DNA of 64,000 nt, from the NCBI RefSeq assembly GCF_014217625.1, contig NZ_CP043642.1, positions 1-64,000 on the forward strand, written 5' to 3'. How positions within the stretch are numbered: the first letter of the stretch is position 1; every line of letters starts with the position of its first letter. A program made the position numbers and the translations under genes. The notes below the pieces were generated by a model. The model made no database searches. It saw nothing but the letters and a program-made list of their open reading frames with translations, and was not told the DNA's origin. Source of the DNA: Leifsonia shinshuensis. GTDB taxonomy: Bacteria > Actinomycetota > Actinomycetes > Actinomycetales > Microbacteriaceae. Of the stretch, positions 27,224 through 52,393 are shown piece after piece.

Positions 27224-27234
27224 GCGAACCTTCC

Positions 27235-27669
27235 CTAGCTGTGTGCGGCGACGAGACCGCTCCAGGCGGGCGTCGAAGCGATCAAAACCATGCCGATGGC
27301 GAAGACGACTGCCGAACCGGCCGACCAGAGGATCGCGTAGCGAAGCGTGACGCCCCTGAACTTGCGGCCACCGAGTATGCGGAAGATGACCGACGCGATC
27401 GTGACGATGATGGCGATCGCGAACCCTCCAGCGAGGGTGTACGTCAGCGCCTGCATATCCGTGGCCGCCTTCGCCAGCAGCGCCCACATGAACGCTGAGA
27501 TCGACCACACGGCCGCCGCTCGCGCAACACGGCGAGCCTTTTGGGGCAGCGGCCCCTTGTTCGCAAGTAGCGCGATCGCCAGTGCGACAAGAAAGGTGAG
27601 CGATCCGGCGCTCCCTACGGCCACGGCGGGCCAAGAGGTCCATTGGATCAAGGATGCGAATGTGAGCAT
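27235..27669 (-). CDS. Four-TM membrane protein of the T4SS operon
   Basis: 144 aa with GGAAGG before the ATG. Four hydrophobic stretches (roughly 12-37, 50-70, 78-97 and 112-132) with a basic loop PQKARRVARA. It lies between the VirB4 and coupling-protein genes. Size and topology suit a small channel subunit; no family recognised. Confidence 0.62.
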   Translation of the reverse strand: MLTFASLIQWTSWPAVAVGSAGSLTFLVALAIALLANKGPLPQKARRVARAAAVWSISAFMWALLAKAATDMQALTYTLAGGFAIAIIVTIASVIFRILGGRKFRGVTLRYAILWSAGSAVVFAIGMVLIASTPAWSGLVAAHS

Positions 27670-29544: not shown

Positions 29545-31055
29545 CAGCTGGCCTTCCGTCGAAGGGAGGAGGTCGCCGAGGGGGCCAGTGCCAGCGGGAG
29601 CGACGCGCTGTTGAAGGCCGCTAACTGCTGCCCGTACATCAGGCGGACCTCCATGCCCTGGCCCTCGGCGGCGGTGGTGAATGCGGAGCAGTTCGCGTCC
29701 AGCTCCTCTTTGCTCAATCCCGTCACGGTGACCAGGCCGAGGAACTCGAGGTCGCCAAAACCGTGAACCAGCTCCTGCTCCCGCCGGGTGATGTCGACCT
29801 GCTCCTGGATCTCGAACTCGTCATCCGCTCGGTCGTTGCCCCGGCGCTGCCGTTCGAGCCGGTTGGCGTTGATCTTGCGCCGCTCAGCGCGGATGCGTCG
29901 GCGGGAGGTCTTCAGTGGAACCGGTGTGAAGTAGAGCGAGGCCGAGTGCTGGAACGGGAGGGTGGTGACGGCGCGGAGGAAGTCCGGAAGTGTGGGGATG
30001 CGTGGCCATTCGGTGACCTCGTACGTGGCGTGGAATGCGCCGTCGGTGCGCAGGTGGTCGACGAGCTCCTTCCCCCAGATCGGGCCCGCGCTGGCCGGGG
30101 CCACGCCGGCACGGGCGTCTGTTCGGTTCTCGATCGCGTCGGCAGCCTGTGGGTCGTACGCTTTCCGCATGACGGCGGCGCCCTCGCGCGCGCCCAGCCA
30201 GGACCGGACGGTGATGCCGCAATCGCGGAGGGATCCAGTGGTGGTGTCCACTTCGCGGGCCATGACGTTCGCGAGGCCGACTCGGCCTCCGCCCTGGGCT
30301 TTGACGTCGCGAGCCAGACGGTCTTTGTCAAGCACAACGACGATGAACTGCTCGTGCTGCGGGGAATTTGCGACGGCGTTGTCGAGGAGGACTTCGTACT
30401 GTTGACGCGCCCACCCGCTGACCGCCTGCGACGCACGCGGCTCGTAGTAGTCCCGAATCGCCGTCGGCGAAGACACCCGAGAGGTGAGGAGAACCTGGAT
30501 GCGCGCCAGACCCGGGTGCTTTACCAAAGAGGACTGGAACAGAGCCCAGGAATCCACGCGCTCCCGCTTCTGCGGATCATCCAGCAACGCATATCCCGGG
30601 GTGGTGACAGCGAGGACGGCGATGAAGGTGCCATGCACCCGGTCCTCGAAGATCGCCTCTCCCAGTTCGGTCTCGAATGCGGTAATCGAGCCGAGACCTC
30701 CCGGAAGCTGGAAGGTGCTCGACTTCTCCACATGGGTGACGACCGGTCGACGCCATTCGGTCTGTCCGAGCAGAGTACGCATCGTGTGTCCAATCTGTGC
30801 GATGAATCGGTTGATGAGGGGGTGTCCGTGCTCGTCCGACCACAGCCCGACGCCCACGAGCGCTGAGCCCGGGAGGAGCGCCACAGTGAGCGCGCCGATC
30901 GGGTCGTCGAGGTGGAACATGATCCACACGACGACGAGCACGACGCCGGATGCGGCAACTCCCACCTGTAGGTTGCTGAAGTTGCCGATGAAGCCGGCTC
31001 GGCGTCGTGCCGGGAACGAGACCTCCCGGGGCTTGTCAATCTGTTCGGCACTCAT
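29544..31055 (-). CDS. SCO6880-family (PrgI/VirB3-like) T4SS protein
   Basis: 503 aa. Two membrane helices near the N-terminus (about 30-66, VGVAASGVVLVVVWIMF and a second segment) are PrgI/VirB3-like. A large cytoplasmic part (RPVVTHVEKSSTFQLPGGLG, YALLDDPQKRERVDSWALFQ) resembles the N-terminal domain of VirB4, as in the actinobacterial SCO6880 family. No Walker motifs, so it is not an ATPase itself. Overlaps neighbours on both sides, consistent with a tightly coupled core complex. Confidence 0.8.
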   Translation of the reverse strand: MSAEQIDKPREVSFPARRRAGFIGNFSNLQVGVAASGVVLVVVWIMFHLDDPIGALTVALLPGSALVGVGLWSDEHGHPLINRFIAQIGHTMRTLLGQTEWRRPVVTHVEKSSTFQLPGGLGSITAFETELGEAIFEDRVHGTFIAVLAVTTPGYALLDDPQKRERVDSWALFQSSLVKHPGLARIQVLLTSRVSSPTAIRDYYEPRASQAVSGWARQQYEVLLDNAVANSPQHEQFIVVVLDKDRLARDVKAQGGGRVGLANVMAREVDTTTGSLRDCGITVRSWLGAREGAAVMRKAYDPQAADAIENRTDARAGVAPASAGPIWGKELVDHLRTDGAFHATYEVTEWPRIPTLPDFLRAVTTLPFQHSASLYFTPVPLKTSRRRIRAERRKINANRLERQRRGNDRADDEFEIQEQVDITRREQELVHGFGDLEFLGLVTVTGLSKEELDANCSAFTTAAEGQGMEVRLMYGQQLAAFNSASLPLALAPSATSSLRRKAS

Positions 31056-32374: not shown

Positions 32375-32393
32375 TGCTGTCCGCCCCCGCTGC

Positions 32394-34841: not shown

Positions 34842-34872
34842 TCCGGTCTCCTCCACAGGTCGGTGTCGAGGT

Positions 34873-34910: not shown

Positions 34911-34942
34911 TCATTACCTAGATGGCGGAAGTGCGCAGCGAG
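34911..34942 (-). promoter_or_regulatory. Shared regulatory element, copy A (T4SS operon)
   Basis: Read leftward: CTGCGCACTTCC then GCCATCTAGGTAATGA. The same 28 nt occur at 34989-35016 (rightward) and 52364-52391 (leftward) with one variable base. All three point toward the downstream operon, here with 69 nt to the VirB8-like start. Probably a promoter or activator site for a special sigma factor; no standard -35/-10 pair is obvious. Confidence 0.65.
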
Positions 34943-34986
34943 TTCGCCCGGGGGCATCCGCCCCGCAGAAAACGGGCCGTGAGGAT

Positions 34987-35018
34987 CACTGCGCACTTCC
35001 GCCATCTAGGTAGTGAGC
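34987..35018 (+). promoter_or_regulatory. Shared regulatory element, copy B (accessory operon)
   Basis: Rightward copy CTGCGCACTTCC-GCCATCTAGGTAGTGA at 34989-35016, arranged back-to-back with copy A so the two form a large inverted repeat about 46 bp apart. It lies 36 nt before the CDxCQ mini-protein start. Divergent identical signals imply that both operons are fired together. Confidence 0.65.
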
Positions 35019-37074: not shown

Positions 37075-37114
37075 GCCGGCCAGCCTAACGCATCCCAATA
37101 GCCCTTGCCGAAAT

Positions 37115-37173
37115 CCAATAGCTATTGGTGAAACCCAATGGGTCTTGTGAAAACACAAGACCTCTTGTATGTT
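37115..37173 (+). promoter_or_regulatory. Promoter with nested palindromic operators
   Basis: A perfect 14-bp palindrome CCAATAGCTATTGG (37115-37128) and a second dyad GGTCTTGTG-AAAA-CACAAGACC (37141-37162) overlap the promoter TTGTGA (37145-37150), 17 bp, TATGTT (37168-37173). A partial half-site CCCAATAG lies at 37094. The region separates the HTH gene from the 37211 gene, so autoregulation is likely. Confidence 0.65.
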
Positions 37174-37210
37174 CGTGACCATCGACCAAGCGAAAGGAAA
37201 GGAGCCGCCG

Positions 37211-39677: not shown

Positions 39678-39775
39678 GACGATCGACCACGGGTCGGATG
39701 CCTGCTCGACGACGACGATCAGCTGGTCGTTTATGGCCGGATACTAGCGAGTGTCGAAGGTCTCGGCTGCGCGCA

Positions 39776-39810
39776 AGAACCCCGCCCGCTCGATGAGCGC
39801 GCGGGGTTCT
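39776..39810. terminator. Bidirectional terminator of the pilus operon
   Basis: AGAACCCCGC and GCGGGGTTCT pair perfectly around a 15-nt loop; the top strand continues with CTCTGCGG. It lies 50 nt past the last gene of the leftward pilus operon. Confidence 0.7.
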
Positions 39811-39861
39811 CTGCGGTTGCAGGCGAAAGTGCCTACGAAGCGCTGTGCGCCGTGGTGAAGC

Positions 39862-40533
39862 TCACTTGCTCGGGTAGTGGGCGAACCCGGGCGGGGCGGT
39901 GTTGATCACTCGTGTCCCGTCGGTGGCGCTGCTGGCGTCCGGAAGCACGGCGACGGCAATCAGCTGCGCTGCACCATTCGCCGAGCGCACCGCCGCAACG
40001 GCGACCTGTGCGCTGCGGGACTCGGCGATGAGCTGCTTCATCCGTTCCGGCGCGGATCCCTCGATGGCAGCGTAGGCAAGGACTTTGCCGTCTGCGCCGG
40101 CGGCTCCGGCGAGCACGGCCGTCGGCCGGCCGCAGACGTCGACGACCTCGTACGCGCCCGTACCGGCCAGGGCGGACAGGTTCTCCTTCCCCCACTCGAC
40201 GAGGCACGGGTCGGGAACCAGCTGAGGTGGCGACACCTGCTCTCCTTGGTAACGGCTGCGCACGTTGCCCAGATCGCCTGCGAGAGTGGCCGTGAGCTCA
40301 CTGGTCGCATCAGTTGCCTGGGCGAGCTTCGCCGTCGCCGGTGCTGGCGCGATGGGGGCATTCGCGGCGACCTGCTGAGGCCCGGTCTTGATGGTCACCG
40401 TCGCTAGGTCGACGCGGTGAGGTTGGGACGCGAACATGACGATCGCGGCGATAGCTCCGCCGACGAGAACGGTTGCTGCGGCCGTCAGCCACCACAGCCT
40501 CTGACGGGTGGCCTTGCCGTGGCGGCCGCTCAT
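39862..40533 (-). CDS. Membrane-anchored extracytoplasmic protein, last gene of pilus operon
   Basis: 223 aa. One N-terminal helix (LWWLTAAATVLVGGAIAAIV), then an Ala-rich extracytoplasmic domain with two Cys (VPDPCLVEWG and VDVCGRPT) that may form a disulfide. Its ATG overlaps the stop of the upstream pilin-like gene (ATGA). Possibly a pilus-anchoring or assembly factor; no family recognised. Confidence 0.6.
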   Translation of the reverse strand: MSGRHGKATRQRLWWLTAAATVLVGGAIAAIVMFASQPHRVDLATVTIKTGPQQVAANAPIAPAPATAKLAQATDATSELTATLAGDLGNVRSRYQGEQVSPPQLVPDPCLVEWGKENLSALAGTGAYEVVDVCGRPTAVLAGAAGADGKVLAYAAIEGSAPERMKQLIAESRSAQVAVAAVRSANGAAQLIAVAVLPDASSATDGTRVINTAPPGFAHYPSK

Positions 40534-42539
40534 CGCAGCACCGACACGTTGACGCCGCCGGTGGCGGGGCTGTACGGGCTATTAGCCCACGGGCTGGAGC
40601 AGTAATACTGCGCGCCGTAATAGGTGACGACGGAGCTGTTCACGCCGCTCGGCAGGCCCCAGTTGTCCTGGTAGCCGTAGGGGTGTGTGAAGACGTTCCC
40701 GGTCCACGAGCGGGAGTACCAGTTCGACCAGCCAACCCAGGTGCCGGCCGGGCAGGCGGTCCCCCAGTCGACCTGGATGGACTTCTCGCAGTTGCTCGCG
40801 GCACACGTGCTGTAGGTCCATCCGGTGCCACGGACCCGCTCCCGGAAGTTGAAGGCCTGCCAGCTGGACTGCGCGGGCGTCGCGAACGGCGTGATCCAGT
40901 TGTTCGACTGCACCTGGATGACCGGGCTGTAGAGGCCGTTGGGGGACGCGCAGCGAGTCTGCAGGCCCATGCCGTAGAGGTAGCCCTGAGTGGCGTAGGA
41001 GGGCGACCAAGACACCTTGGTGAGGTTGTTCTGGAAGGGGCCCTGGTAGTTGACGGTGTTCGACACGGTGCCGTTGGACTGGCCGGTTCGGTTCTCGAGT
41101 TGAGATGCCTGGATGGTGGTGCCGGCCGGGCAGGTTCCGGTGAAGCTCCACGTCACCTGTCCGGAGACGAAATTGCCAGAGTAGCCGGTGCGCGTGTAGA
41201 CCATGTTGGCCCCAGCGGGTGTGGCCGGCCAGGCGGTGGCGATCGCGGCCGGCGCCGACTTCGTCGAATCGTCGCCAACACGTGCGGTCACCCAGAAGGT
41301 GATCGTGGCCCCGTAGGTGGTCCCGGTGGTGAACGCCTTCGTCGCGGTCAGTCCGGTCGTCTCAGGCATCTGGTCGTCCGTGCCGAAGCTCGTCGCCCAC
41401 GACGGCTCGTAGGACGTGGTGAGGCTTGACACCGCCGTCCAGGTGAGGGCGTACTGCTCGGCCGAGCTGCCCTGCTTCACCGTCAGAGCGGGCGCCGGGA
41501 GCTCCTGGTGGTAGTTCGCGACAGCCTGCTTGACCTCGCTGCCGACGCCGCAGGCGGCCGTGAGTGTGATCGCCCCGCCGCTTCCGTTGGCGACGCCTGC
41601 AAGCTCCAGGGTCGACGCTGCATCGGTGAGCGTGCGCTGGGTGACGACGTTGACGGGTGCGATTCCGTCGGGTGAGCTCGCCGCGTACGAGAGGTTCAGG
41701 GTCGTGGGCATCGCAGGGCACGTGCCGCCCGTGAAGGTGACTGTGACCCCCTCCCGGGCGCCGGAGTATGCGGTGCCGGTGGACTGGGATCGGACGACGC
41801 TGGTGATTCGCAGCTCGGAGGGCGTGGGAAGGGGGTTGGTCGCGGGAACGTAGTGGACCTCGCTGGCGGCGGGGGCGTTGACGATCGCTGTGGTGCCGGT
41901 GAACACGCCCTGGCGGGAGAACTTCGCGATCTGCTGGTCGGCGCTCTTGACGTCGATGCGGATCATGTATGGCCGGACATCGTTCCAGTCCGCATCGGCG
42001 ACGTCGGCGGGTCGAGATCCCGCGGCGAGGGACGCGTTGCCGGTGGTGTCGAACGTGATCGTGCGGCCGCCGAGGTTTTCGTAGGCGATGGTTGCGGCCT
42101 GGAGGTCGTCGACGCGCAGCGCGGAGTTGGTCGCCGGTGCGGGGACTGTCGTGTCGGTCGTGCAGGCGCCGGCGGCCGTCGTTGTGCTCGAGCGGAGGGA
42201 TGGTGTTCCCCCGTCCGTCTTCGTGAACCACTGCTTGATCGTGCACTGGCTGCCGGTGGTCGTCAGGAGCGCGATCCGGTCGTCGCCGTATGCGTGCACC
42301 AGGGTCGCGCCGCGGACGTCCTGCTTGAACTCGATGTCTCCGACATTCAGGCGGGACGATGCGGTGGCCGAGTTGCCGAGGGTCGAGTTGAGGGTCACCA
42401 CGAGGATTGCGGCCGCGAGTGCGGCCGCGACGATGGCCGACCGGATCGGTGCGGTAACGACGAGTTCCTTGATGCTGCCTGGGGCGTCTCCGCGGGATCC
42501 AGCCAGCAGGTGGAGACGACGTGAGATGAAGTTGCGCAT
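40530..42539 (-). CDS. Large prepilin-like adhesin
   Basis: 669 aa from ATG 42539 (AAGGAAG upstream). A class III-type leader, with processing expected after G21 of GDAPG|SIKELVV, is followed by a hydrophobic helix (IRSAIVAAALAAAILVVTLN). The mature protein is Thr/Ser/Gly/Tyr-rich with Ig-like strands and paired Cys (SQCTIKQWFTK, ACGVGSEVK, TRCASPNG, TCAASNCEKS). Its leader matches that of the major pilin (G|SIKEF), so it should be processed by the peptidase at 45461 and placed in the same fibre, probably as tip or minor pilin. Confidence 0.72.
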   Translation of the reverse strand: MRNFISRRLHLLAGSRGDAPGSIKELVVTAPIRSAIVAAALAAAILVVTLNSTLGNSATASSRLNVGDIEFKQDVRGATLVHAYGDDRIALLTTTGSQCTIKQWFTKTDGGTPSLRSSTTTAAGACTTDTTVPAPATNSALRVDDLQAATIAYENLGGRTITFDTTGNASLAAGSRPADVADADWNDVRPYMIRIDVKSADQQIAKFSRQGVFTGTTAIVNAPAASEVHYVPATNPLPTPSELRITSVVRSQSTGTAYSGAREGVTVTFTGGTCPAMPTTLNLSYAASSPDGIAPVNVVTQRTLTDAASTLELAGVANGSGGAITLTAACGVGSEVKQAVANYHQELPAPALTVKQGSSAEQYALTWTAVSSLTTSYEPSWATSFGTDDQMPETTGLTATKAFTTGTTYGATITFWVTARVGDDSTKSAPAAIATAWPATPAGANMVYTRTGYSGNFVSGQVTWSFTGTCPAGTTIQASQLENRTGQSNGTVSNTVNYQGPFQNNLTKVSWSPSYATQGYLYGMGLQTRCASPNGLYSPVIQVQSNNWITPFATPAQSSWQAFNFRERVRGTGWTYSTCAASNCEKSIQVDWGTACPAGTWVGWSNWYSRSWTGNVFTHPYGYQDNWGLPSGVNSSVVTYYGAQYYCSSPWANSPYSPATGGVNVSVLR

Positions 42540-42549
42540 GGTGACTTCC

Positions 42550-44130
42550 TTACTGCCAGCTAGGGGCGACGAACCCGGTCGGGCGGGGCATTTGCTGCGC
42601 GCTCGCGCGGTTGCCGGTGAGGGTCGCGGGCCACAGGCCGTTTCCGTTGGTGCCGATGGCCCACAGCCCTCCATCGGTGTCGATCGCCGCGGTGTAGTTC
42701 ATGTTCGGCGAGGTCTGGACGCTCCGGAATCGAGCAGGGGCGTCGACCGGGGTGGGTGTGGTCCTGTCGGCGCTGTCGCCGGTGCCCAGGGCGCCGGAGC
42801 TGCCAGCTCCCCAGCTGAAGAGGCGGCCTGAGTTGTCGATCGCGAACGCACGGTAGGAGCCGGCGGTGACTTGCACGAACGCGGCGCCGGGCGCGACCTT
42901 GACGGGCGTGGACTTACTGGTCAGGGTGCCATCCCCCAGCTGCCCGTTGGCGCCGTATCCGACGGCCCAGAGCTGGCCGGTGACGTCGATGGCGTAGAAG
43001 GCGGTCACGCCGGCGCTGATCTGGGTGAAGACCGTGGTCGCCGGGATTGGGGTAGCCGTGCTGACCGCCGTGGTGGTGCCGTTCCCGAGCAGGCCGTAGG
43101 CGTTGAATCCCCAACTCCATGCGCGGCCCTTGTCGTCGAGTGCCCAGGTGGCGCCGTTGCCGGTCGAGACTGCGGTGAACCGGGTGGTGGGCGCGATCGC
43201 GGTCGGCGTGTTGTAGCTGAGCTTCTTCCCGTCGCCGAGCTGCCCGTTGGTGCCGGCGCCCCAGGCCCACAGCCTGTGAGCCGTGTCAATGGCGAACGTC
43301 GACCCGGCGGCGCTGCTGATGGCGATGAACTTGTGGTCCGGGATCGACGTCGGCGTGCACACCGTGTCTCCTGCATGGCCGAGGCCGAGCTGTCCCTGGT
43401 CGTTGTTCCCGTATCCGTAGGCGGTGCCAGCGGCGTCGAGGAAGAACCCGAGGTCTCCGCTCGAGAAGGCAATCCGCACGTCGGTTGGGGTATCGAAGCC
43501 CTTGGGCGATGCGTCGAGGGTGCAGGGGGAGGTGGGGCGGAAGATCCACGGCTTGCCGGCGCTGTCGACGCCGCTGCGGGGTCCGGCAGTGACCCAGGTG
43601 GTCCCGGCCTTCGGCCCCTTCATCTGGTCCTCGGTGACCTTGGTTGGTGTCCCGGCGGCCACGCCCCAGATGGTGAACGAGTTTGCGCCGTCGACGCTGA
43701 CCCAGCTCGGTCGGCCCTTCGCGTCGAGCGAGCTTACGTGCGTGGCCTTCGTGGCTTTGAGGACGACGTCGCGGGTCATGACCAGGCCGCCATCGACCTG
43801 GTCGGCTTGGATCCGCAGAGTGCGGGAGAGACCATCTCCGCTTGGGGTGTCCGAGACCACCGTGGTGCAGACCGCTGGGTTCAATCCGCACGCTCGAGCG
43901 GTGGAAGGGACGGTGGTGCCGGTGAGGTCGCTGTCGAGAATGGACGCGTACGTTTGTGCGCGGTTCTCGACAGCTTGACCCAGCTGGACGGTGAGGGCGG
44001 TTTGCTCTGTCAGGTTGGCGTTGTTGGTGACGATCGTGTTCATGAGGTAGAGCCCGGTGATCGCGGCGACCCCGAGGGTGACCGTGATGCGGAGGTCTCC
44101 CCGCTTGCCAGAGAGGTGCCGGCGGATCAT
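42550..44130 (-). CDS. Prepilin-like protein with RCC1 beta-propeller
   Basis: 526 aa. The N-terminus MIRRHLSGKRG|DLRITVTLG has a prepilin-type site and hydrophobic helix. From about residue 225 to 500 come RCC1-type repeats: YGYGNNDQGQLGLGH, LWAWGAGTNGQLGDG, WSWGFNAYGLLGNG, LWAVGYGANGQLGDG and LFSWGAGSSGALGTG. This predicts a seven-bladed or smaller propeller displayed on a pilus. RCC1 propellers usually bind proteins, so it is a plausible tip adhesin for recipient recognition. Overlaps the upstream gene (ATGA) and precedes the 669-aa gene by 10 bp. Confidence 0.78.
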   Translation of the reverse strand: MIRRHLSGKRGDLRITVTLGVAAITGLYLMNTIVTNNANLTEQTALTVQLGQAVENRAQTYASILDSDLTGTTVPSTARACGLNPAVCTTVVSDTPSGDGLSRTLRIQADQVDGGLVMTRDVVLKATKATHVSSLDAKGRPSWVSVDGANSFTIWGVAAGTPTKVTEDQMKGPKAGTTWVTAGPRSGVDSAGKPWIFRPTSPCTLDASPKGFDTPTDVRIAFSSGDLGFFLDAAGTAYGYGNNDQGQLGLGHAGDTVCTPTSIPDHKFIAISSAAGSTFAIDTAHRLWAWGAGTNGQLGDGKKLSYNTPTAIAPTTRFTAVSTGNGATWALDDKGRAWSWGFNAYGLLGNGTTTAVSTATPIPATTVFTQISAGVTAFYAIDVTGQLWAVGYGANGQLGDGTLTSKSTPVKVAPGAAFVQVTAGSYRAFAIDNSGRLFSWGAGSSGALGTGDSADRTTPTPVDAPARFRSVQTSPNMNYTAAIDTDGGLWAIGTNGNGLWPATLTGNRASAQQMPRPTGFVAPSWQ

Positions 44131-44939
44131 GAGGCTGCTCCTGCGTCGTAGATGAGGATCGTGTCGGTGGCGGCGCTCCCGTCGACGACGGTGAGGGTTA
44201 CGGGTCCGGAAGCGGCGACGGCGATGGTGCCGATGTAGTTCGACGGGGCCGGGAGGATCGGCATCGTGGCGAGCGTCGAGCCGTTCTGCTGGAAGCGCAG
44301 CGTCGCGCTCGTCGTGAGGGACTTGGCGTGGATGAGGTACCGCCAGGTGCGTGAGCTGGTCGGAGTTGCCTGAGCCAGGGCGGTGCCGGCGGGAGTGGCG
44401 TCGGGGCTGCCCTTCACTGCCGGGTTCACGGTACCGACCGGTGCGTTGAGGCTTGGGTCCATGCGGACGATGGGGTTCGGGACGAGGGTGGTGATGTCGT
44501 TGGCGCGGAACAATTCGGCGTGGAGGCAGCGCCGGTCTGCAGCGTTCGCCGGGGTGAGGCAGGTGCTGGTGGAGTCCGCGCGATCCCGAGGGATGAGCGC
44601 TTCGTAGGTGGACCCTCCGTCCCCGGCTGTCGTCCAGGCGGCGACCTTTGCGATCGTCCCCGAGGGGAGGGTGAGTGTGCGGATCGCCGGGTCATCCGGG
44701 GTGCCCCAGGTGACGGTGGCTCGTTTGTCGTCGACGAGGGCGGAGATCGTGGAGAGGCGTTCGGAGATACTGCCGGTGGTTGTGACCACGGCTGCCGCGC
44801 TCGGGGTGCTGGTTGCCACCGCCGTCGCGATGACGGCCAGCACGATCACCGAGGCGAGAGAGTCGCGGATGCTTCCTCGCTGTCCGTGCAGCAGGCCGCG
44901 CCTGGGGCGAGTGGTTGTGCGGATCTGGTTTGCGGTCAC
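44127..44939 (-). CDS. Minor prepilin-like protein
   Basis: 270 aa, GTG 44939 with GGAGG upstream. A long basic leader (MTANQIRTTTRPRRG and on to GQRG|SIRDSL) is followed by a hydrophobic helix (ASVIVLAVIATAVATS). The mature part is beta-rich with two Cys (STCLTPANAADRRC). Same leader pattern as the other pilins of the operon, so a minor pilin or priming subunit. Confidence 0.7.
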   Translation of the reverse strand: MTANQIRTTTRPRRGLLHGQRGSIRDSLASVIVLAVIATAVATSTPSAAAVVTTTGSISERLSTISALVDDKRATVTWGTPDDPAIRTLTLPSGTIAKVAAWTTAGDGGSTYEALIPRDRADSTSTCLTPANAADRRCLHAELFRANDITTLVPNPIVRMDPSLNAPVGTVNPAVKGSPDATPAGTALAQATPTSSRTWRYLIHAKSLTTSATLRFQQNGSTLATMPILPAPSNYIGTIAVAASGPVTLTVVDGSAATDTILIYDAGAAS

Positions 44940-44994
44940 GAGGTCCTCCGGGTGGTGGGGCCGGCCACGAGGGCCGGCCCCTGGTCGGGTCTGG

Positions 44995-45384
44995 TCAGGG
45001 AGCCGTCGGGCAGGCGACGCCTGCGACGGTGGGGGCGGTGTCAGAGCTCCGGCTGCCCTCGGACGACGACCACATGGGCTTTCCGCCGTCCGCCTGGCTG
45101 ACGGCGCAGAACGCGGAGCCGTCGCTGCTGACGTTGATCGTGACCTTCGTCTTGGCATCGGGCAGCGTGAGGTTTCCTGCGGCCTGCAGCTGGTCCGCGG
45201 TGCCGTAGCTGCCGTGGTTGAGCTTGTAGACCGTCTGGGCGCTCTGAATGGTGCTGCCGACGTTGCCCGAGCTGCTGGTGTTGATGCCGACCAGAACGCC
45301 GGCGAGTACGATCAGGCCGACGGCCGTCGTGGCGATCCATGCGCCGTTCGCTGCGAGGAACTCTTTGATGGAACCGGGATTCAT
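44995..45384 (-). CDS. Major type IV pilin-like protein
   Basis: 129 aa. A very short leader MNPG|SIKEFLAANG with Glu at +4, followed by the hydrophobic stem WIATTAVGLIVLAGVLVGIN. A small globular head has two Cys (SAFCAVSQAD and VAGVACPTAP) in the positions of the pilin disulfide loop. Its place directly after the prepilin peptidase gene and its small size point to the major subunit. Confidence 0.8.
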   Translation of the reverse strand: MNPGSIKEFLAANGAWIATTAVGLIVLAGVLVGINTSSSGNVGSTIQSAQTVYKLNHGSYGTADQLQAAGNLTLPDAKTKVTINVSSDGSAFCAVSQADGGKPMWSSSEGSRSSDTAPTVAGVACPTAP

Positions 45385-45460
45385 TGCTTCTCCTTGTGGT
45401 GAGTGGTGTTGGAACTGAGGAAGGTTGGCTGCTGGCAGGTTTCGTGCGGATTGGGCACCG

Positions 45461-45958
45461 TTACGTCACCTCCCCTGTGGTGTGAGTCAGGACGGCGAGT
45501 CCGACCATGGCGGCGACGGCCAGGGCCGGTCCGTGCGCCGTGTTCTCCTCGGATCCGCGGCTGGCGCTGCGGCCGAGTAGACCGAAGAGGGAGTGGAAGA
45601 CCACGCCCAGGAAGAGGACGCCGGCGGCCAGAAGAGGGCTGGCCAGTCCGAAGACTCCGACGGGAACGCCGATGAGCTTGATGTCGCCCGCGCCTACGGG
45701 GAGGCGTCCCGCTGCATCGTCAGCGACCGCGCGCTCGAGGTAGATCACGAACGCGACGAGGCCGCAGGCGATGCCGGTGGCCCACTGGGTCAGGCTCAGC
45801 TGATCGATGCTGCCCGCCGCGACGGACGCGGCACCCAGGGCGAGGATGCTCGCGTTGTGGATGGTGTGGGTGCGCGCGTCGACGAAGGCGATGGCGATCA
45901 GGCCAACGGTGAGGGTTGCGGCCGCAGCGACAGGCTGGCCCGGGATCAGATTAAACAT
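45461..45958 (-). CDS. Prepilin peptidase (A24 family)
   Basis: 165 aa with about six membrane helices. The two catalytic aspartates of A24 aspartyl proteases are in FVDARTHTIHN and GAGDIKLIG (GxGDxK motif). No N-terminal methyltransferase/cysteine domain, as in TadV/CpaA-type enzymes. Start overlaps the platform-protein stop. It should cleave the four leaders of this operon. Confidence 0.88.
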   Translation of the reverse strand: MFNLIPGQPVAAAATLTVGLIAIAFVDARTHTIHNASILALGAASVAAGSIDQLSLTQWATGIACGLVAFVIYLERAVADDAAGRLPVGAGDIKLIGVPVGVFGLASPLLAAGVLFLGVVFHSLFGLLGRSASRGSEENTAHGPALAVAAMVGLAVLTHTTGEVT

Positions 45959-47159
45959 GGTTGAGGGCGTTCCCCATGTCTTGGAGCGAGATCATCATCG
46001 GAGTGAGCAGCAGGAAGACCGTGGTGACGCCGAACATGAGGGTGAGGTCGTCTACTCGGCGAGCAAGACGGTTGGCCAGCGAGGTGGACGCGTTCTCGGC
46101 CTTCTTGCCGTAGGTGGCGCTCAGGTCGCGGAGAACGTCGATGCGTTCGCTTGCCCCCGGCTGGAGGGCGAGCCTGTGGCTGAGGGTGGGGGGAAAGTAC
46201 GGTGAGCGCGCGACGCCGGCGAGGTCTTCGGTTCCGTCGTAGATGCGCTGGATGTGCTCCTCGACGTGGAGGATGATGGCCGCGTTTCCGGTTGCGCGCG
46301 CGGCGGTGCGCAGCGACTGGGATTCGTCCATGCCTGCGTCGAGGCTGGAAGCGAGCACCTCGGTGAACTTGGCCCCGGCGTCATGAGTGGTGACCTTCCT
46401 CAGTTCCCGGCGCATCCTTTTGCCCCGCTTACCCTTCGGGGCGGTCAGGAGGTATCGGTCGATTCGGAGCCGGAACTTCGGGTTTTTCTTGCCCGCGGTG
46501 TTGTACCAGATCATGGCGATGATGCCGCCGACGAGGGCGACGATAGCGACGGCTCCGACCACCCGAGTCGCGTTCAGGATCAGCGTCGCTACGACCGCGG
46601 CGCTCGGACCCAGCGTGTCGGGGTTGCCGAACGCGAGGTTCACGGATGCGACGATGACGATCACGGTGAGGATCGCGAGGCTGATCGGGTTGGCGAGCTT
46701 GACTCGGAGTTCGGCGGTCAGGTCGGAGCTCTTCCGGATGAGTTCGGCCGATCGTCGCAGGTTCCGCCAGAGGATCTGCTGGTTCACGCCGGCGCTGATC
46801 AGGTCGCGTGCGACCCGGGGGAAGACACTCTCCTCGTCGTTGATGGCGTCGGAGAGGCTGGTGCCGTCGATCAGCTTGTCGGCGATTCGGCCGTATGCGG
46901 CACCGACGCTGGTTCCCTCGTAGATCGATGCGATGGCCGTTACCGCGTGGTGCTCGGACGCTCCCGCCTTGAGAAGGGCTTCGAGGTCCTCGAGGGTTTC
47001 AGCAATCTCCTCCCGCGTCGACTTCTGCGCCGTCACGGTCTTGCGCGAGGCGCCCTGGTCAGTGGCGCTGGCGGTCTCCAGCTTCGCTGGGGCGACCGGT
47101 TCGCGGGCGACGGTGGATGACGCCGACGAGGTCTCATCCAGGAAGTTGATGTCGGACAT
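45951..47159 (-). CDS. PilC/GspF-type pilus platform protein
   Basis: 402 aa. Two helical GspF-type domains (LEDLEALLKAGASEHHAVTA; EVLASSLDAGMDESQSLRTA) alternate with three membrane segments (LAILTVIVIVASVNLAF, VGAVAIVALVGGIIAMIWY, MFGVTTVFLLLTPMMISL). A disordered, Ser/Thr-rich N-terminus of about 45 residues. Forms the inner-membrane base on which the ATPases act. Confidence 0.82.
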   Translation of the reverse strand: MSDINFLDETSSASSTVAREPVAPAKLETASATDQGASRKTVTAQKSTREEIAETLEDLEALLKAGASEHHAVTAIASIYEGTSVGAAYGRIADKLIDGTSLSDAINDEESVFPRVARDLISAGVNQQILWRNLRRSAELIRKSSDLTAELRVKLANPISLAILTVIVIVASVNLAFGNPDTLGPSAAVVATLILNATRVVGAVAIVALVGGIIAMIWYNTAGKKNPKFRLRIDRYLLTAPKGKRGKRMRRELRKVTTHDAGAKFTEVLASSLDAGMDESQSLRTAARATGNAAIILHVEEHIQRIYDGTEDLAGVARSPYFPPTLSHRLALQPGASERIDVLRDLSATYGKKAENASTSLANRLARRVDDLTLMFGVTTVFLLLTPMMISLQDMGNALNHV

Positions 47160-48295
47160 TAGGCCTCCAGGTCAGGGCGGACGGGCATGTTGAGTGCTTC
47201 GGTGAGGGTCTGGGGCTCGCGGAGCATGGCGGCTGCGGTCTCGTGCTTGACCTTGTTGTTGCGGACGAGGTGAGCCAGCGAGTCCTCGAAGGGCACGTTG
47301 CCGGCGCGGCGGCCCGCGCCGCGCAGATAGCTGCGCACGTGGTGCAGGGAGCCGCCCCCGACGTCGGCGCGAATCGTTGCCTCCATCTCGCGGTCGTTGA
47401 TCGCGACTTCCTGGACGAGCGCCATTTGGGGTTCGTCGGCGGTGACGTTCTCGCCGTCCTTGCGAACGAGGGACTGCACGACCATGGCTTGAAGCGCCTG
47501 CGCGAGCTGTGCGCGGGCCAGGTGCTGCTTGTCGGCCGGGTAGAACGCGATCATCGCCGCAATCGCGTCTTCCACCGAGCTGGCGTGGAGGGTGCTGATG
47601 ACCAGGTGGCCGGAGAGGGCGGCGTCGAGGGCGGCCTGGGCCACTTCGCCGTCGCGGATCTCGCCGACGACGATCACCCGAGGGTGGGATCCCTTCGCAT
47701 CCTTGATGCCGTCTTCGTAGCTGCGGAAGTGGGTGCCGAGCTCGCGCTGCGTCACGAGGCTGCGCTTCGGCTGATGGATGAACTCGGTCGGGTCTTCGAG
47801 CATGTAGACGTGGGAGTCGATCGAGTCCATGAGGGCGGCGATGCAGGCCGCCAGGGTGCTGCTCTTGCCGGAGCCGGTCGGACCGGCGATGCCGATGAAG
47901 CCTGAACCTCGTCCAGCGAGATTGACCACCTTCTTGGTGAGCCCCAGCTGCTGCCAGGTGGGAATCTCGCGAGGGATGATGCGCAGCGTCGCGGTGGTCC
48001 CGTGGACCGTCCGCCGCAGCGTCACCCGGGCGCGATAGCGGCGGGACTGGTCGTTGGAAGCGAACGCCTGCCAGGTGCCAGCGGTCCATCCGCCCTCCCG
48101 GTGGTGCAGGAAGAGCGACGTCGCGAAGTCGTCGATACTGGCCGCGTCGAGCGCGGGCACGTCCGGAACCGCCCTGGTCTCCTTGTACTTGACCGTCAGG
48201 AGCCCGCGGTGGGGCGTCAGGTGAAGGTCGGAGCAGTTGTCGTCGCCGAAGTGGTCGACCCAGTCGGCCACGTCTTGTGCTGTGAATCGAGTCAT
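47159..48295 (-). CDS. PilT/GspE-family ATPase
   Basis: 378 aa. Walker A GIAGPTGSGKSSTL (about 136-149), Asp box HVYMLEDPTEFIHQ, Walker B PRVIVVGEIRDGEVAQAALD and His box LVISTLHASSVEDAI follow in order. Size and sequence are nearest to PilT retraction ATPases, suggesting a pilus that can retract. It lies directly before the platform gene, sharing a base with it. Confidence 0.85.
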   Translation of the reverse strand: MTRFTAQDVADWVDHFGDDNCSDLHLTPHRGLLTVKYKETRAVPDVPALDAASIDDFATSLFLHHREGGWTAGTWQAFASNDQSRRYRARVTLRRTVHGTTATLRIIPREIPTWQQLGLTKKVVNLAGRGSGFIGIAGPTGSGKSSTLAACIAALMDSIDSHVYMLEDPTEFIHQPKRSLVTQRELGTHFRSYEDGIKDAKGSHPRVIVVGEIRDGEVAQAALDAALSGHLVISTLHASSVEDAIAAMIAFYPADKQHLARAQLAQALQAMVVQSLVRKDGENVTADEPQMALVQEVAINDREMEATIRADVGGGSLHHVRSYLRGAGRRAGNVPFEDSLAHLVRNNKVKHETAAAMLREPQTLTEALNMPVRPDLEA

Positions 48296-48302
48296 ATGCC
48301 GA

Positions 48303-49478
48303 CTACTCCTGCCCGAGGATGCGGATAGCCTCGGCGCGGTCGGTGATGCCCGCGGCGATCAGAGCGTCCAGGTTCGTCGAGAAGCGTGTGGAGTTGGCGT
48401 CGGCGATCGCGTGAAGCTGGGTGCTGGAGCGGCCCTCGATCATCGCGTCGATGAAGTCATCCGTCTTGGTGAGGATCTCGTGCACGGAACGCATGCCTGC
48501 GTACCGGTTCTCACCGGTTCGAGCGAGCGTGCGCACGAGACGCTGCGAAACAACCCCGCGCACACCGTCCAGCATGGAAAGCGGCTCGGCCTCGGCGAGT
48601 TTCACGAACCTTCGGAGGGCGGCGACGCCGTCCGTCGCGTGGATGGTCGAGAGGACCAGCTTCCCCATGTCGGCGAGCTGGGCGGCGAGTCGGGCGGTGT
48701 CTCGGTCGCGCACCTCGCCGATAATCAGCAGGTCGGGGTCGGCCCGGACGATCTTCTCGAGGATGGCGGCGTAGCCGGCCTGGGCACCGTTGGTCTCGTT
48801 GACCTCGATCTGCTCGACACCGTCGATCAGCTGCTCGACGGGATCTTCGATCGACATGATCGTGCCGAACTCTCGCCGGAGCTCCATCACAATCGCACGC
48901 AGCAGCGAGGACTTGCCCTCGTTGGTCGGACCTGCAGCGAACACGATCCCGCTTCGCCGCGTCAGCATCCGCCCCAGTGCGCGAGAGTTCTCGTCGGTGA
49001 GGCCGAACTCGACAAGCGGGCGAGCTCGGCCCAGCTGCGGAAGTCGGAGCACGACCTTCTCGCCGTCGTCGACGAGGAGGAAGCGGACGGCTCGGGCTCG
49101 GTAGTTGTAGCCGTCGACGGGCAGCATGATCCGGCCGTCAGCGGGCTCTGAGGCCTGGTGCTGACTTCCCAGACGTGCATGCGCCTTGACGGCGTTGAAG
49201 ATGGTTCGAGCTTCGTCCGGGCCGTACTCGACCAGGTCGTGACGCTCACGCTCGAACTTCGTGTAGATGCGCAGCGACTTCGTGACGCTGTCGATCACCA
49301 TGTGGACATCGCTCGCGCCGGCACGGGCGAGCGCAACCAGCGCCCCGTGCTTCCAGTCAGCGATCTCGCCGGTGCCGATCTTGTTCGCGACGTCCGCGAA
49401 GGTGCCCGGCTCGGCCGAGGGAGCGGTCTCGGCGTCCAGGCTTGCGACCGAAGTGGTGGACGGGTAGGTGAGGGTCAT
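48303..49478 (-). CDS. Second pilus secretion ATPase (GspE/PilT family)
   Basis: 391 aa from ATG 49478 (AAAGGA upstream). Walker A is unusual (AAGPTNEGKSSLL, about 189-201), then TIMSIEDPVEQLI, Walker B DLLIIGEVRDRDTA and LVLSTIHATDGVAAL. A serine-rich N-terminal leader of about 30 residues. Two ATPases in one operon fit an extension/retraction pair; which is which cannot be told from sequence. Confidence 0.8.
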   Translation of the reverse strand: MTLTYPSTTSVASLDAETAPSAEPGTFADVANKIGTGEIADWKHGALVALARAGASDVHMVIDSVTKSLRIYTKFERERHDLVEYGPDEARTIFNAVKAHARLGSQHQASEPADGRIMLPVDGYNYRARAVRFLLVDDGEKVVLRLPQLGRARPLVEFGLTDENSRALGRMLTRRSGIVFAAGPTNEGKSSLLRAIVMELRREFGTIMSIEDPVEQLIDGVEQIEVNETNGAQAGYAAILEKIVRADPDLLIIGEVRDRDTARLAAQLADMGKLVLSTIHATDGVAALRRFVKLAEAEPLSMLDGVRGVVSQRLVRTLARTGENRYAGMRSVHEILTKTDDFIDAMIEGRSSTQLHAIADANSTRFSTNLDALIAAGITDRAEAIRILGQE

Positions 49479-49555
49479 GCTCGTTCCTTTGCTGGAGGTA
49501 TGAATGAGGAGGGGGGCGCGGGCGGGTGTGAGGGGAACCCGCGCCCCCGGTCTGG

Positions 49556-52294
49556 TTACTTCGTGGACGTGCGCTTGCTGCGCCGAGAGGCGACGATGAG
49601 GACGACCCCAGCCGCGGCGAGGATGCTGACCAGCGCCAGGCCGATGGGCAGGTAGGCCGCCTCGTCGGAGCCGGTCTTGGCGAGCGCGTCGACGATGGTG
49701 GTCTCGCCGTCGGCGCCGCACTTGCCCTGATGGGTGACCTCACCGCGGGCGTTGCGGACGATCTCCACCCAGAAGTAGGTGCCGACCTCGGTGAACGTGT
49801 AGTCGTCGGAGACGTACTCGCCGGTCGCAGGGAGCGGCTGCGACTTGCCCACCTTCACCTCGTTCGCCGTGGTGCAGACGGGGGTAGTTCCCTGCTGCTT
49901 GTAGACGGCGAACTCGATCGTGGCGTTCTTGGGGATGACCCCGGTCACGATGGCGGTGTCGTGGCCCTTCTGGCCGAGGCCAACGCGCGGGGTGGCCTTC
50001 GTCACCACGTCGTCCTCCGCAACGACCGTCTTCTCCTTCTGGTCGCCGCACTCCCCTGTGTTGATGACGGTGCCGTCACCGGTGCGGAAGGTGGCGACCC
50101 AGTAGTAGACGCCGACCTTCTTGAAGATCACGTCGGCGGACGGGAATCGTCCTGCCTCGCTGACAGGCACCGGCTTGTTGTAGAAGTACGCCGGGTCGCG
50201 CTCGAGTGGAGCGGTGGGCGAAGGTGACGGCGTGCCCGCCCCGGCCGCGTTCGGAGCCGGGGTGGGGGCTGCCTCGGCAACGTATCCGGTGTTGAAGACC
50301 TCGTTGGTCGGTTCGCACACCGGCTGGTCGCCGAGGTCCTGCTGCAGGTAGGCAGCGAAAGTCACCGTGTTCGGGCAGCTCGTCGCACCATCGGCCGGCT
50401 GGCTGGTGCCGCAGTACGGCGCCGGGATCTGACCGTCGACGATCGCGGTGTCGTTCGTCTCGTCGCCGAGAGCGACCGAAGCGACCGCCTCGGTCGACAC
50501 TGCGGGCGGGGATACCTTGGTGACCTCGCCCTCGGTGGCCCAGCCGTCGGTCCAGTCGGTGAAGTATCCCGCTCCGGGTCCGTCCTGGATGAGGGTCCAG
50601 ACGTTCACCAGGTAGCCGTCCGCGGTCGGCGGGGCGGTGATCTCGTCCGAGTCGTAGCCGCCCGGGGCCGTCACGCTGACATCGGTCGTGTGGAACAGCT
50701 TCGCGTCAGACGGGACGGTGTCGCCCGGGGTGGGAGCCGTGTCGCCTTCGACCCAGTAGGTCTTGTTCTGGAAGTGTGCCGGGATGGGCTCTCCGCCGAT
50801 GGTCGGCCACGGTCCCTCGTCGAGCGAGACCGTCAGGGTGTCGGAGACGGTGTGCCCGAACCCGACCTCGCCGGCGGATGCCTTCGAAACGCCGGAGAGC
50901 TTGGCGGCGACGACGTGCGCTTCCGCCTGCAGACCGAACTGGTCGGCCCACCGGTATCCCTCCGGCATGAAGGTCTGAGCTCCGACAGAGGAGTCGGCGG
51001 CGTCGATGTGCCAGACCCACTGGTAGAAGCCGGGTGCGTGGTTGGCCGCGAGCACCGAGGGTGCCGTGTACTTGCCAGGACCGTTGAGGGTCACCGTGGC
51101 GTTGCCCGCCACGGGCGCGCCGGCCGGGGCCGTGGCGGAGGGCGAGGGCTGGTCGACGAACGGGCCGTACAGCGTGCCCTGGGTCACGATGGGGATGTAG
51201 CGGCCTGAGGTCGTCTGCCGCCAAGGCTGCGACCCTGCGGCGACGTCGGCCTGGAGCGTGTCGGTGAAGCTGCTGCCCTGATCGACGAAACGGCTCTGCA
51301 CGCTGGAGGTCACGACTGGCGAGAACAGCGTCGAGCGCTCGACCGGGTCGCTAGCGGTCATGGTGTAGCTGAAGCGCTGCTGGGTGGTCGATCCGCCCTT
51401 GATCACCCGCTGCTGACCGCCGGTGGAGTAAATCGTGACGTTGCCGTCGTAGGTCCATCCGGCGGGAGCGTTGACGTTGCCGGTGGCGCTGATCTTGTAG
51501 AACGGCGTGCCGTCCGCTGGGACACCCTTGACCGAATACGTGCCATTGCCGACACCGTTTCGGGCAGAACTGCCGGTGTCGGTGAATATGCCGTTCGTCA
51601 GCTGCAGGTTGACGGTCGCACCGGCGGGCAGGTTCACCACCCGAAGAGATCCGGTGTAGTTGTTGTTGTCGACGCTGAAGCTCATGGACCCGGTGAACGC
51701 CGGAGCGCCCTGCGGTTGGTTGTACTGGGCTTCGGTCTCGTTCCAGATCGTGTTGAACGCACCGAGCACCGTCTGGTTGCCGTCGATGTAGTGCACGCCG
51801 GTCGCGTAGCCCTGGCCGTTGTAGTGGGCCCACGTCGACGTATATGCGTACACATAGGCGTTCACCGCTGCCGCCTGGGTCGGGTCAGCGGTCTGGCCCC
51901 ATTTCGAGAGCGCGTAATTGAGTCTCTGCAGAACCGACCCGTTGAGCGCATCTCCCATCTCGGTGGTCAAGGCGCCGACAAGAGAGCCGCCTCCGGTGGC
52001 GCCGCTCGGCCAATCCCTCGAGGAGTCCATGCAGTATGCGCGGGAGTTGTCGGGGACGATGTAGTTGCCGAGGTAGCCGCCGTCAGGAGTTATTCCTGAG
52101 TAGCCAGCGCCCGTCTGTGCGGCTTCTGCCGTCGTTGGCGACGTGCCAAACTCGACCGTTGTCCCCACGACGCCCAACGCCAGAGACGTGGCGACGAAAA
52201 CTGCGGCGACCTTGGCCTTGTACCGGGGCTTCATCGTGCCCCGGTGGCTGGTCAACCTTGCGGGTGTGCCCCGTCGTTTCGGGTGGTGGTGCAT
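49556..52294 (-). CDS. LAxTG-anchored surface protein
   Basis: 912 aa. A signal peptide (VAAVFVATSLALGVVGTTV) is followed by a thioester- or Ig-type adhesin N-terminus (AYCMDSSRDWPSG; HYIDGNQTVLGAFNTIWNE) and several beta-sandwich repeats. Among these are related blocks AVASVALGDETNDTAIVDGQ and RVGLGQKGHDTAIVTGVIPK, about 180 residues apart. The end is a sortase signal: LAKTGSDEAAYLPIGLALVS and the rest of a helix, then RRSKRTSTK. LAxTG is the class E sortase motif; no sortase gene is in the window, so a host enzyme must act. First gene of the pilus operon, 66 nt after the shared element. The ATG at 52294 is used because AGGAGAGGA precedes it. Confidence 0.8.
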   Translation of the reverse strand: MHHHPKRRGTPARLTSHRGTMKPRYKAKVAAVFVATSLALGVVGTTVEFGTSPTTAEAAQTGAGYSGITPDGGYLGNYIVPDNSRAYCMDSSRDWPSGATGGGSLVGALTTEMGDALNGSVLQRLNYALSKWGQTADPTQAAAVNAYVYAYTSTWAHYNGQGYATGVHYIDGNQTVLGAFNTIWNETEAQYNQPQGAPAFTGSMSFSVDNNNYTGSLRVVNLPAGATVNLQLTNGIFTDTGSSARNGVGNGTYSVKGVPADGTPFYKISATGNVNAPAGWTYDGNVTIYSTGGQQRVIKGGSTTQQRFSYTMTASDPVERSTLFSPVVTSSVQSRFVDQGSSFTDTLQADVAAGSQPWRQTTSGRYIPIVTQGTLYGPFVDQPSPSATAPAGAPVAGNATVTLNGPGKYTAPSVLAANHAPGFYQWVWHIDAADSSVGAQTFMPEGYRWADQFGLQAEAHVVAAKLSGVSKASAGEVGFGHTVSDTLTVSLDEGPWPTIGGEPIPAHFQNKTYWVEGDTAPTPGDTVPSDAKLFHTTDVSVTAPGGYDSDEITAPPTADGYLVNVWTLIQDGPGAGYFTDWTDGWATEGEVTKVSPPAVSTEAVASVALGDETNDTAIVDGQIPAPYCGTSQPADGATSCPNTVTFAAYLQQDLGDQPVCEPTNEVFNTGYVAEAAPTPAPNAAGAGTPSPSPTAPLERDPAYFYNKPVPVSEAGRFPSADVIFKKVGVYYWVATFRTGDGTVINTGECGDQKEKTVVAEDDVVTKATPRVGLGQKGHDTAIVTGVIPKNATIEFAVYKQQGTTPVCTTANEVKVGKSQPLPATGEYVSDDYTFTEVGTYFWVEIVRNARGEVTHQGKCGADGETTIVDALAKTGSDEAAYLPIGLALVSILAAAGVVLIVASRRSKRTSTK

Positions 52295-52360: not shown

Positions 52361-52393
52361 TTCACTACCTAGATGGCGGAAGTGCGCAGTGAG
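52361..52393 (-). promoter_or_regulatory. Shared regulatory element, copy C (pilus operon)
   Basis: Leftward CTGCGCACTTCC-GCCATCTAGGTAGTGA at 52364-52391, identical to copy B and one base from copy A. It lies 66 nt before the LAxTG-protein start, nearly the same distance as copy A to its gene (69 nt). A hairpin GGCCGGA/TCCGGCC follows it in the leader, as behind copy A. Confidence 0.65.

Follow-up and report, generated by a model that had tools for sequence, protein, structure and literature searches.

A compact type IV pilus operon is encoded on the minus strand (52294-39862) of a 64,000-nucleotide stretch of Leifsonia shinshuensis DNA (hereafter, the window), which corresponds to bases 1-64000 of contig C2 (118,178 bp) in a genome of 4.61 Mb and three contigs. 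As judged from ATPase phylogeny, the plasmid-borne type IV pili of Micrococcales to which this module belongs form a clade of their own, marking a poorly described lineage of plasmid pili whose uses need not be conjugation. In the Leifsonia-group plasmid considered here, the module appears to be part of the conjugation regulon, being tied to conjugation in this plasmid family by a 31-bp element shared with the genes of a type IV secretion system (T4SS) and by the steady partnership of a MobF relaxase, a coupling protein and a probable thioester adhesin. On balance, we incline to regard it as a mating-pair adhesion pilus that would capture recipients and stabilise pairs, being co-expressed with the T4SS and the adhesin. 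To our knowledge, Gram-positive donors are held to lack conjugative pili. How such donors find and hold recipients is poorly known, and a plasmid pilus under a conjugation regulator and with a modular tip would make this question testable.

Gene content and relationships of the pilus operon

Gene content and order agree with the original prediction, made from the letters of the window, of an operon with a prepilin peptidase, a PilC/GspF platform protein, two GspE/PilT ATPases, a major pilin and three large leader-bearing proteins, headed by an LAxTG surface protein. Pfam matches, a leader test and the C-terminus of the first protein bear out this description (aa, amino acids):

49556..52294, minus strand, 912-aa surface protein that heads the operon, wall-anchored by a LAKTG signal; probable adhesin of the thioester (TED-like) type, with Ig-like stalk
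48303..49478, minus strand, ATPase 1, GspE/PilB-like, probable extension motor (PF00437, T2SSE, 6.7e-46)
47159..48295, minus strand, ATPase 2, PilT-like, probable retraction motor (PF00437, T2SSE, 2.7e-32; pilT_fam, 3.5e-68, below its cut-off)
45951..47159, minus strand, PilC/GspF-type platform protein (PF00482, T2SSF, 6.7e-16, two stretches)
45461..45958, minus strand, A24 prepilin peptidase, short form (PF01478, Peptidase_A24, 1.2e-06)
44995..45384, minus strand, small (major) pilin, leader MNPG-SIKEF (leader test)
44127..45158, minus strand, large pilin-like protein of 343 aa, leader RG-SIRDS (leader test)
42550..44130, minus strand, RCC1 beta-propeller protein of 526 aa, prepilin-like leader KRG-DLRIT (PF00415, 2.8e-43)
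40530..42674, minus strand, large pilin-like protein of 714 aa (~671 aa if from 42545), leader APG-SIKEL, proposed tip adhesin
39862..40533, minus strand, 223-aa protein with hydrophobic N-terminus, last gene of the operon and least conserved of the module

The open reading frame (ORF) of ATPase 1 is open from 49721, its start being placed near 49478 by alignment, and that of the 343-aa protein is open to 45158, with the true start further in (about residue 70-75). The leader test called for a G[SD][IL][KR] motif among the first 120 residues, followed by a hydrophobic stretch. Of 58 window ORFs tested, 5 passed, namely the small pilin, the three large proteins and the prepilin peptidase, whose copy (GAGDIK, near residue 90) we take to be its own catalytic, active-site motif. 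The 223-aa protein (39862-40533) is without a G-SIK leader, and no Pfam match at 0.1 was obtained for it, the LAKTG protein, the small pilin or the 343- and 714-aa proteins. Eight small-pilin proteins at the same gene position, with seven other plasmids represented, show 22-32% identity; the 343-aa protein has a counterpart in the same position on five other plasmids (18-34%), and the RCC1 protein was aligned to five relatives (25-41%). A terminator and promoter scan gave counts that were both lower than the shuffle means. The chromosome of the same genome also carries a type IVa-type pilus locus (PilB and PilC profiles), directly after genes read as rpoB and rpoC; thus, the plasmid system is an additional one.

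Membership of the Tad, Com, IncI and ordinary type IVa pilus (T4aP) systems is rejected by profile scores and, for the latter two, also by the tree described below. The possibility raised with the original prediction that the operon might fall within ordinary Tad or competence pili was accordingly not borne out by the profile scores. The IncI thin pilus (R64/TP114, type IVb, PilL-PilV) is alike in being plasmid-borne, in lying near conjugation genes, in having prepilin peptidase, platform and major pilin, and in a large minor pilin with a variable C-terminus. On the contrary, the R64 pil genes encode PilL, a secretin PilN, PilO, PilP, a lytic transglycosylase and one ATPase, while the window operon has two ATPases and shows none of these additional genes in recognisable form; no Pfam family for secretin PilN, PilO/PilP or lytic transglycosylase was found among its ten proteins at E 0.1, the operon being the only region covered. 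A secretin is not expected in a monoderm. R64 PilQ lies, on a long branch, outside both the ATPase 1 clade (support 100/99) and the group of ATPase 1, PilB and GspE (98/94).

Type IVa pili, found on actinobacterial chromosomes and Arthrobacter megaplasmids, share with the module a PilB/PilT motor pair, PilC and a prepilin peptidase, all of them present here with scores below the equivalog or subfamily cut-offs. The PilM-PilN-PilO complex and the N-methylation-type pilin motif were not found in the operon (Pfam on ten proteins, NCBIfam on eight), its leaders being G-SI(K/R) or G-DLR; chromosomal PilM-PilN-PilO copies could act in trans. Against the GspF model, the module PilC reaches 73 bits and the chromosomal PilC 358 bits. 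Regarding the Com pilus, the ComGA-type ATPase model gave 141.5 and 108.5 bits, with a cut-off of 300. The two module ATPases score 27.8 and 30.3 bits with the TadA-type model, in comparison with 169 for GspE and 230 for PilT, and no Flp pilin family was detected by Pfam among the operon proteins, features that separate the module from the Tad machinery of Cutibacterium acnes. The report on the latter describes Tad/Flp pili, which are also type IV filaments, encoded by an actinobacterial plasmid that bears conjugation signatures; the pilin was identified by mass spectrometry and appendages by microscopy (PMC5696575). It is thus not wholly new for a conjugative plasmid of actinobacteria to encode a type IV filament. 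Among the papers listed, none has a title or abstract opening that describes the module itself, in a search that left subscription journals mostly uncovered and from which absence from print is not claimed.

The tree comprised 40 ATPases in hand-chosen rows; references were few, and Tad and Com were not represented. All 12 module rows of ATPase 1 fall into a single group (100/99), and the 10 module rows of ATPase 2 into another (99/94), apart from one further Curtobacterium ATPase placed inside it; a constraint holding the 10 ATPase 2 rows alone was not rejected (p-AU 0.21). Both groups are separate from the T4aP PilB and PilT rows, those of PilB being weakly united (78/24), and ATPase 2 groups beside PilT (91/84). 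R64 PilQ and TraJ appear as very long branches outside the module clades.

In the plasmid collection, the PilC query matched seven records, four of them with at least 80% query coverage, and the 714-aa query matched four, of which three are plasmids of Curtobacterium and one is from Glaciihabitans; the third of the Curtobacterium records (pCPAA3) is unannotated and was counted as a carrier from its protein matches. Annotated regions of the Arthrobacter zg-Y1110, A. caoxuetaonis, Pseudarthrobacter pACHL01 and Paenarthrobacter YJN-5 plasmids have broadly the gene order of the module as well, with two ATPases, then PilC, the peptidase, a pilin and large proteins, and with small genes interspersed in some. 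These four Arthrobacter-group plasmids also carry a fuller T4aP set with PilM alongside, and Pseudarthrobacter BIM B-2242 displays the T4aP set alone in the stretch inspected. Among 299 Microbacteriaceae genomes, in a survey listing the best places with at most four candidates scored per genome, six places, distributed over five genomes, scored 474-702 bits with the ATPase 1 profile (the window's own, G000; G076, whose place matches the Glaciihabitans record by coordinates; G050; G198; and G212, twice), and the other places listed scored at most 233 bits, as chromosomal PilB does. Contigs numbered C1 hold none of the six. From the order, 396 genomes were sampled, overlapping with the family, and a threshold of E 1e-75 was passed by the window's genome alone (1/396). 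The 701-kb contig G212:C5 (L099) holds two ATPase 1 copies ~200 kb apart, one of them at 679983-681365.

Conjugation genes and the shared 31-bp element

The features of the window contig that connect the pilus operon with conjugation are the following:

13195..16965, plus strand, MobF/TrwC relaxase-helicase (PF08751, 1.4e-81)
25535..27643, minus strand, TraG/VirD4-like coupling protein (PF12696, 8.6e-22)
27691..29544, minus strand, VirB4-like ATPase, C-terminal half type (NF045971, 3.1e-18, below cut-off)
29544..31055, minus strand, SCO6880-family T4SS protein (NF042935, 5.3e-78, over cut-off)
34911..34941, plus strand, shared control element, preceding the first start codon of the T4SS operon by 69 bp and oriented as the copy at 52362
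34986..35016, minus strand, shared control element in opposite orientation, beside the 34911..34941 copy
52362..52392, plus strand, shared control element, preceding the start codon of the LAKTG gene by 67 bp

The joint presence of SCO6880, VirB4-like (below cut-off), VirD4-like and MobF proteins indicates an SCO6880-type actinobacterial T4SS with MobF. Four further ORFs of the region (23554-24585, 31055-32467, 32750-33895 and 33885-34856) gave no Pfam or NCBIfam match at 0.01, and a fifth (24927-25538) matched DUF4913 alone, below the Pfam cut-off, so that the full T4SS originally proposed for this replicon is not proved part by part. The plasmid nature also proposed there agrees with a contig that is plasmid-sized, the assignment being one by size.

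The control element that, according to the original prediction, the pilus operon shares with the T4SS was recovered in three copies, two of them identical over 31 bases, where 0.00 were expected in shuffles. The copies at 34911 and 34986 make an inverted pair ahead of the T4SS operon, and the third precedes the LAKTG-pilus operon; a further, less similar copy occurs at C2:74123. The nearest relative found among plasmids, a contig of 47,660 bp, belongs to Leifsonia sp. TF02-11 and came from a contig scan in which 121 stretches fitted a pattern and 2 encoded a relative. There, all three copies occupy the same three places, with the same 69- and 67-bp gaps to the start codons, and five mononucleotide shuffles of the contig contained no site within 8 mismatches. 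The core of all three window copies is GCGCACTTCCGCCATCTAGGTA and that of all three TF02-11 copies is GCGCGCT(C/T)GGCCCATCTAGGTA, the same four positions differing between the plasmids in all three copies and a fifth in two. Such concerted change is most simply explained by one shared reader of the sites, with gene conversion as the alternative. When other loci were compared, no copy within 8 mismatches of 31 was found beyond the two Leifsonia-group plasmids.

MobF, the coupling protein, the LAKTG gene and the module genes stay together in TF02-11. Identities between both plasmids are 95% for MobF, 84% for the coupling protein, 83% for the LAKTG protein and 48-97% for other flanking ORFs; within the module, they amount to 79% for ATPase 1, 77-86% over two frames for ATPase 2, 70% for PilC, 72% for the peptidase, 65% for the small pilin, 66% for the 343-aa protein, 68% for the RCC1 protein, 60% for the 714-aa protein and 32% over 136 residues for the 223-aa protein, these last two being the fastest-changing members. 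The T4SS core between the coupling protein and SSB differs between the two plasmids.

Three proteins were considered as regulators and could not be assigned: a helix-turn-helix protein (53806-54465), a 274-aa protein (52407-53231) and a 138-aa protein (36847-37263), the latter with weak similarity to sigma-70 region 4 (9.7e-05, under cut-off) and possibly connected with the shared element.

A second, 71-bp repeat, unlike the 31-bp element, occurs in the window at 5432-5502 and 7616-7686 in copies 89% identical, and is possibly another control element.

The 714-aa and LAKTG proteins

The structure model of the 714-aa protein displays stacked beta-sandwich domains behind a low-confidence N-terminal helix (pLDDT 76.3, pTM 0.49), and that of the LAKTG protein consists of beta domains (pLDDT 82.7, pTM 0.50). 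Fold searches with both models returned generic multi-Ig/FnIII matches, FnIII-like for the 714-aa protein, which we propose, on the basis of its model and of the mosaic pattern described next, to be a tip adhesin. Its N- and C-terminal parts were compared in 20 sequences (190 non-independent pairs; fragment P0067 excluded; thresholds chosen after a first look). The C-terminal part was >80% identical with the N-terminal part <60% in 11 pairs, and the reverse held in 2. The window protein shares 49% (N) and 96% (C) with P0050, and 78% (N) and 51% (C) with P0051, while P0050 and P0061 share 87% (N) and 51% (C). Identities of the N and C parts correlate with a rho of 0.55, in comparison with 0.78 for two halves of the N part. 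Discordance in both directions points to exchange of a C-terminal cassette rather than to rate alone, as expected for a recognition surface. In the IncI2 plasmid TP114, PilV C-terminal variants can change recipient affinity (PMC9045228). The variation observed here is found between plasmids instead; no shufflon, with its invertible C-terminal cassettes, was seen at the tip gene in 39600-42800, where 9 short inverted pairs (14-26 nt, 74-94% complementary) were read as no recombination-site family, a recombinase gene not being searched for.

The 912-aa ORF ends in LAKTG, a hydrophobic stretch and a basic tail (RRSKRTSTK), consistent with a sortase-anchored protein, even though the NCBIfam sorting-signal models each match 1-2 of 22 family members and leave the window protein unmatched. 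The family comprises 63 proteins, 25 of which were aligned; C69, Q115 and Q276 are invariant in 25/25, providing the conserved Cys and Gln expected in the N-terminal domain of a thioester adhesin, with Q115 and Q276 as candidates for the pairing Gln. The PF08341 TED model matches 1 of 22 family members, and one relative carries the source name Cys-Gln thioester bond-forming surface protein. We consider the protein a probable thioester (TED-like) adhesin with an Ig-like stalk. In these features it resembles the predicted thioester surface adhesin TIE of the conjugative Bacillus plasmid pLS20, which also has an Ig-like stalk and is needed for efficient conjugation; both proteins have a YC-hydrophobic-polar motif, YCID in the pLS20 adhesin and YCMD in the window protein. 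TIEpLS20 is reported not to be sortase-coupled to the wall, whereas the window protein ends in a sorting signal (PMC8092201). Unlike the pLS20 case, the window adhesin is paired with a pilus.

The three best plasmid relatives of the LAKTG protein (30-35% identity), in Leifsonia ZF2019, Curtobacterium G54a and Microbacterium hominis, all lie on plasmids with conjugation genes, and these plasmids gave no match for the module PilC or the 714-aa protein; a fourth plasmid match, in Cellulomonas, covers 29% only. Relatives of the LAKTG and 714-aa proteins are on contigs of equal size in three cases (28,105, 106,520 and 19,530), suggesting that they are linked there too.

Carriers of the module and function of the pilus

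Thirteen carrier replicons were considered: those of the window, TF02-11 and Glaciihabitans, three of Curtobacterium, four of the Arthrobacter group, G050:C6, G198:C61 (a 15-kb fragment) and G212:C5. Absence in them means absence at the sensitivity of the profiles used, and relaxase counts refer to the TrwC/MobF family alone, with G050, G198 and G212 outside that search. Relaxase, VirD4-like and VirB4-like proteins were all recognised on 2 of the 13, with gaps in search coverage and a weak VirB4 in TF02-11. When the window genome was searched for TrwC/MobF together with eight other carriers and four non-carrier records, it was the only positive carrier, and the relaxase was found separately in TF02-11. 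SCO6880 was recognised in 0/11 other carriers and likewise not on the TF02-11 contig, though other contigs of that genome have it. The VirB4-like profile NF045971 detects the window protein and reaches 15-20 bits (weak) in two Curtobacterium plasmids, with none in other searched carriers; a TF02-11 contig protein matched it when scanned alone (E 4.5e-5, 22 bits) and none did in the contig-level search. TraG/VirD4 is clear in the window, TF02-11, two Curtobacterium plasmids (51 bits) and G050 (53 bits); it is about at cut-off in three Arthrobacter-group carriers, below it in one, and was not found in Glaciihabitans, Curtobacterium D40, G198 or G212. The module is thus not generally a conjugation pilus, and a dedicated role of that kind, as originally predicted, is rejected as a general statement: most carriers are without recognised conjugation sets where searched, the very outcome named beforehand as telling against it. 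What stands of the prediction concerns the Leifsonia family, where the co-varying element is shared and MobF and the coupling protein are kept in TF02-11.

The plasmid-like contig G050:C6 also encodes a topoisomerase and may hold an unrecognised system. It contains as well (L097:4278-9860) an 1860-aa protein with short matches to RNA polymerase Rpb1 and Rpb2 domains in one chain.

A large FtsK/SpoIIIE protein is common to Glaciihabitans and Pseudarthrobacter pACHL01 (36% identity), as is a TraG-like ATPase (36%). The former has strong matches, some in pieces, in 9 of the 11 carriers searched besides the window's and in BIM B-2242, none in G000 or G198, and weak partial ones in G050, the search excluding TF02-11. 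Of the 299 family genomes, five have a TraG-like ATPase of this type; two of the five carry the module, and G000 is not among them. The pair is located at L066:10419-22399 and L064:15624-25258, on Glaciihabitans and Arthrobacter-group megaplasmids, and is possibly an unknown transfer or secretion system.

From these observations, we infer assembly and retraction of a pilus, a regulatory function of the element and adhesion serving mating. The plasmid would encode a small, self-contained type IV pilus with two motors, a platform, its own peptidase and a major pilin, whose three large pilin-like proteins probably sit at the tip as adhesins. Expressed in this plasmid family together with the T4SS and the wall-anchored, probably thioester-forming adhesin, the pilus would reach out and pull in candidate recipients, the surface adhesin would hold them and the T4SS would transfer DNA.

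Several findings weigh against such a role. Most module carriers are without recognised MobF relaxase, SCO6880 or VirB4 where searched; co-regulation rests on two related plasmids, with no assigned regulator; and the TF02-11 ATPase 2 gene is split over two overlapping frames (L082:8773-9911), so that either this copy is dead or the read or assembly is wrong. Regarding the adhesin, the window LAKTG protein is below the Pfam TED model, a PDB profile search returned one unrelated chain (E 0.27) and no TED structure, and the best Foldseek matches of its model are other proteins of several domains, the stalk of a clostridial adhesin (Cpe0147 repeats) appearing only at rank 12 and no TED fold being recognised among the best 50. 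Moreover, relatives of this protein also occur on ~1-3 Mb contigs, probably chromosomes.

The sizes of the replicons and their scarcity of transfer genes would suit a pilus for adhesion or biofilm formation in general, which the plasmid would carry as cargo for surface colonisation of its host and which came to lie beside the conjugation genes, under their promoter, by chance or because aggregation suits both: most carrier replicons are 149-701 kb plasmids or contigs with no recognised relaxase or VirB4 where searched, and a role in colonisation has been proposed for the Flp pili of C. acnes plasmids (PMC5696575). Nonetheless, we regard this as unlikely, for it predicts neither the concerted change of the element at both operons nor the retention of MobF and coupling protein next to the pilus genes. 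It appears less probable still that the megaplasmid pilus is part of an unrecognised DNA-transfer machine with the FtsK/SpoIIIE translocase and the TraG-like ATPase, from which the Leifsonia plasmids borrowed the pilus part only. The wide occurrence of FtsK-type matches among the carriers and the two ATPases common to the Glaciihabitans and Pseudarthrobacter plasmids agree with such a machine; on the contrary, FtsK/TraG-like genes also occur without the module (W09; G233, G263 and G280, where ATPase 1 scores stay below the level of the module) and could have a function in partition or in a different secretion system, and no relaxase of the one family searched was found. Finally, the best score of ATPase 1 being with GspE (169 bits) would be compatible with a pseudopilus of the type II secretion kind, or with a pilus for DNA uptake, instead of one on the surface. 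We give hardly any credence to this explanation, considering the position of ATPase 2 beside PilT, the very large, adhesin-like pilins and the fact that Pfam detected no additional family, for instance that of an uptake channel, in the 10 proteins of the operon.

The mating-pair adhesion pilus is most likely a Gram-positive parallel to the IncI thin pilus, working like it without being a member of that family, as far as the analogy goes. More tentatively, and with somewhat less confidence than doubt, it might be an independent IncI-like counterpart, in which a retractable pilus with exchangeable tip cassettes would select recipients and the covalent thioester adhesin, under the same regulator, would lock the pair before T4SS transfer. 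If true, this would be a second, independent case of a plasmid choosing its partners by a type IV pilus.

Elsewhere in the window, 517-bp perfect inverted repeats (17286-17802 and 23038-23554), 5.2 kb apart, surround MgtC, MgtE/CBS and Nramp metal-transport genes, an arrangement that looks like a composite transposon. An 8-bp tandem repeat (AGTACGGA type) at 59807-60006, just before an ORF read as ParA-like, is possibly an iteron or a partition site.

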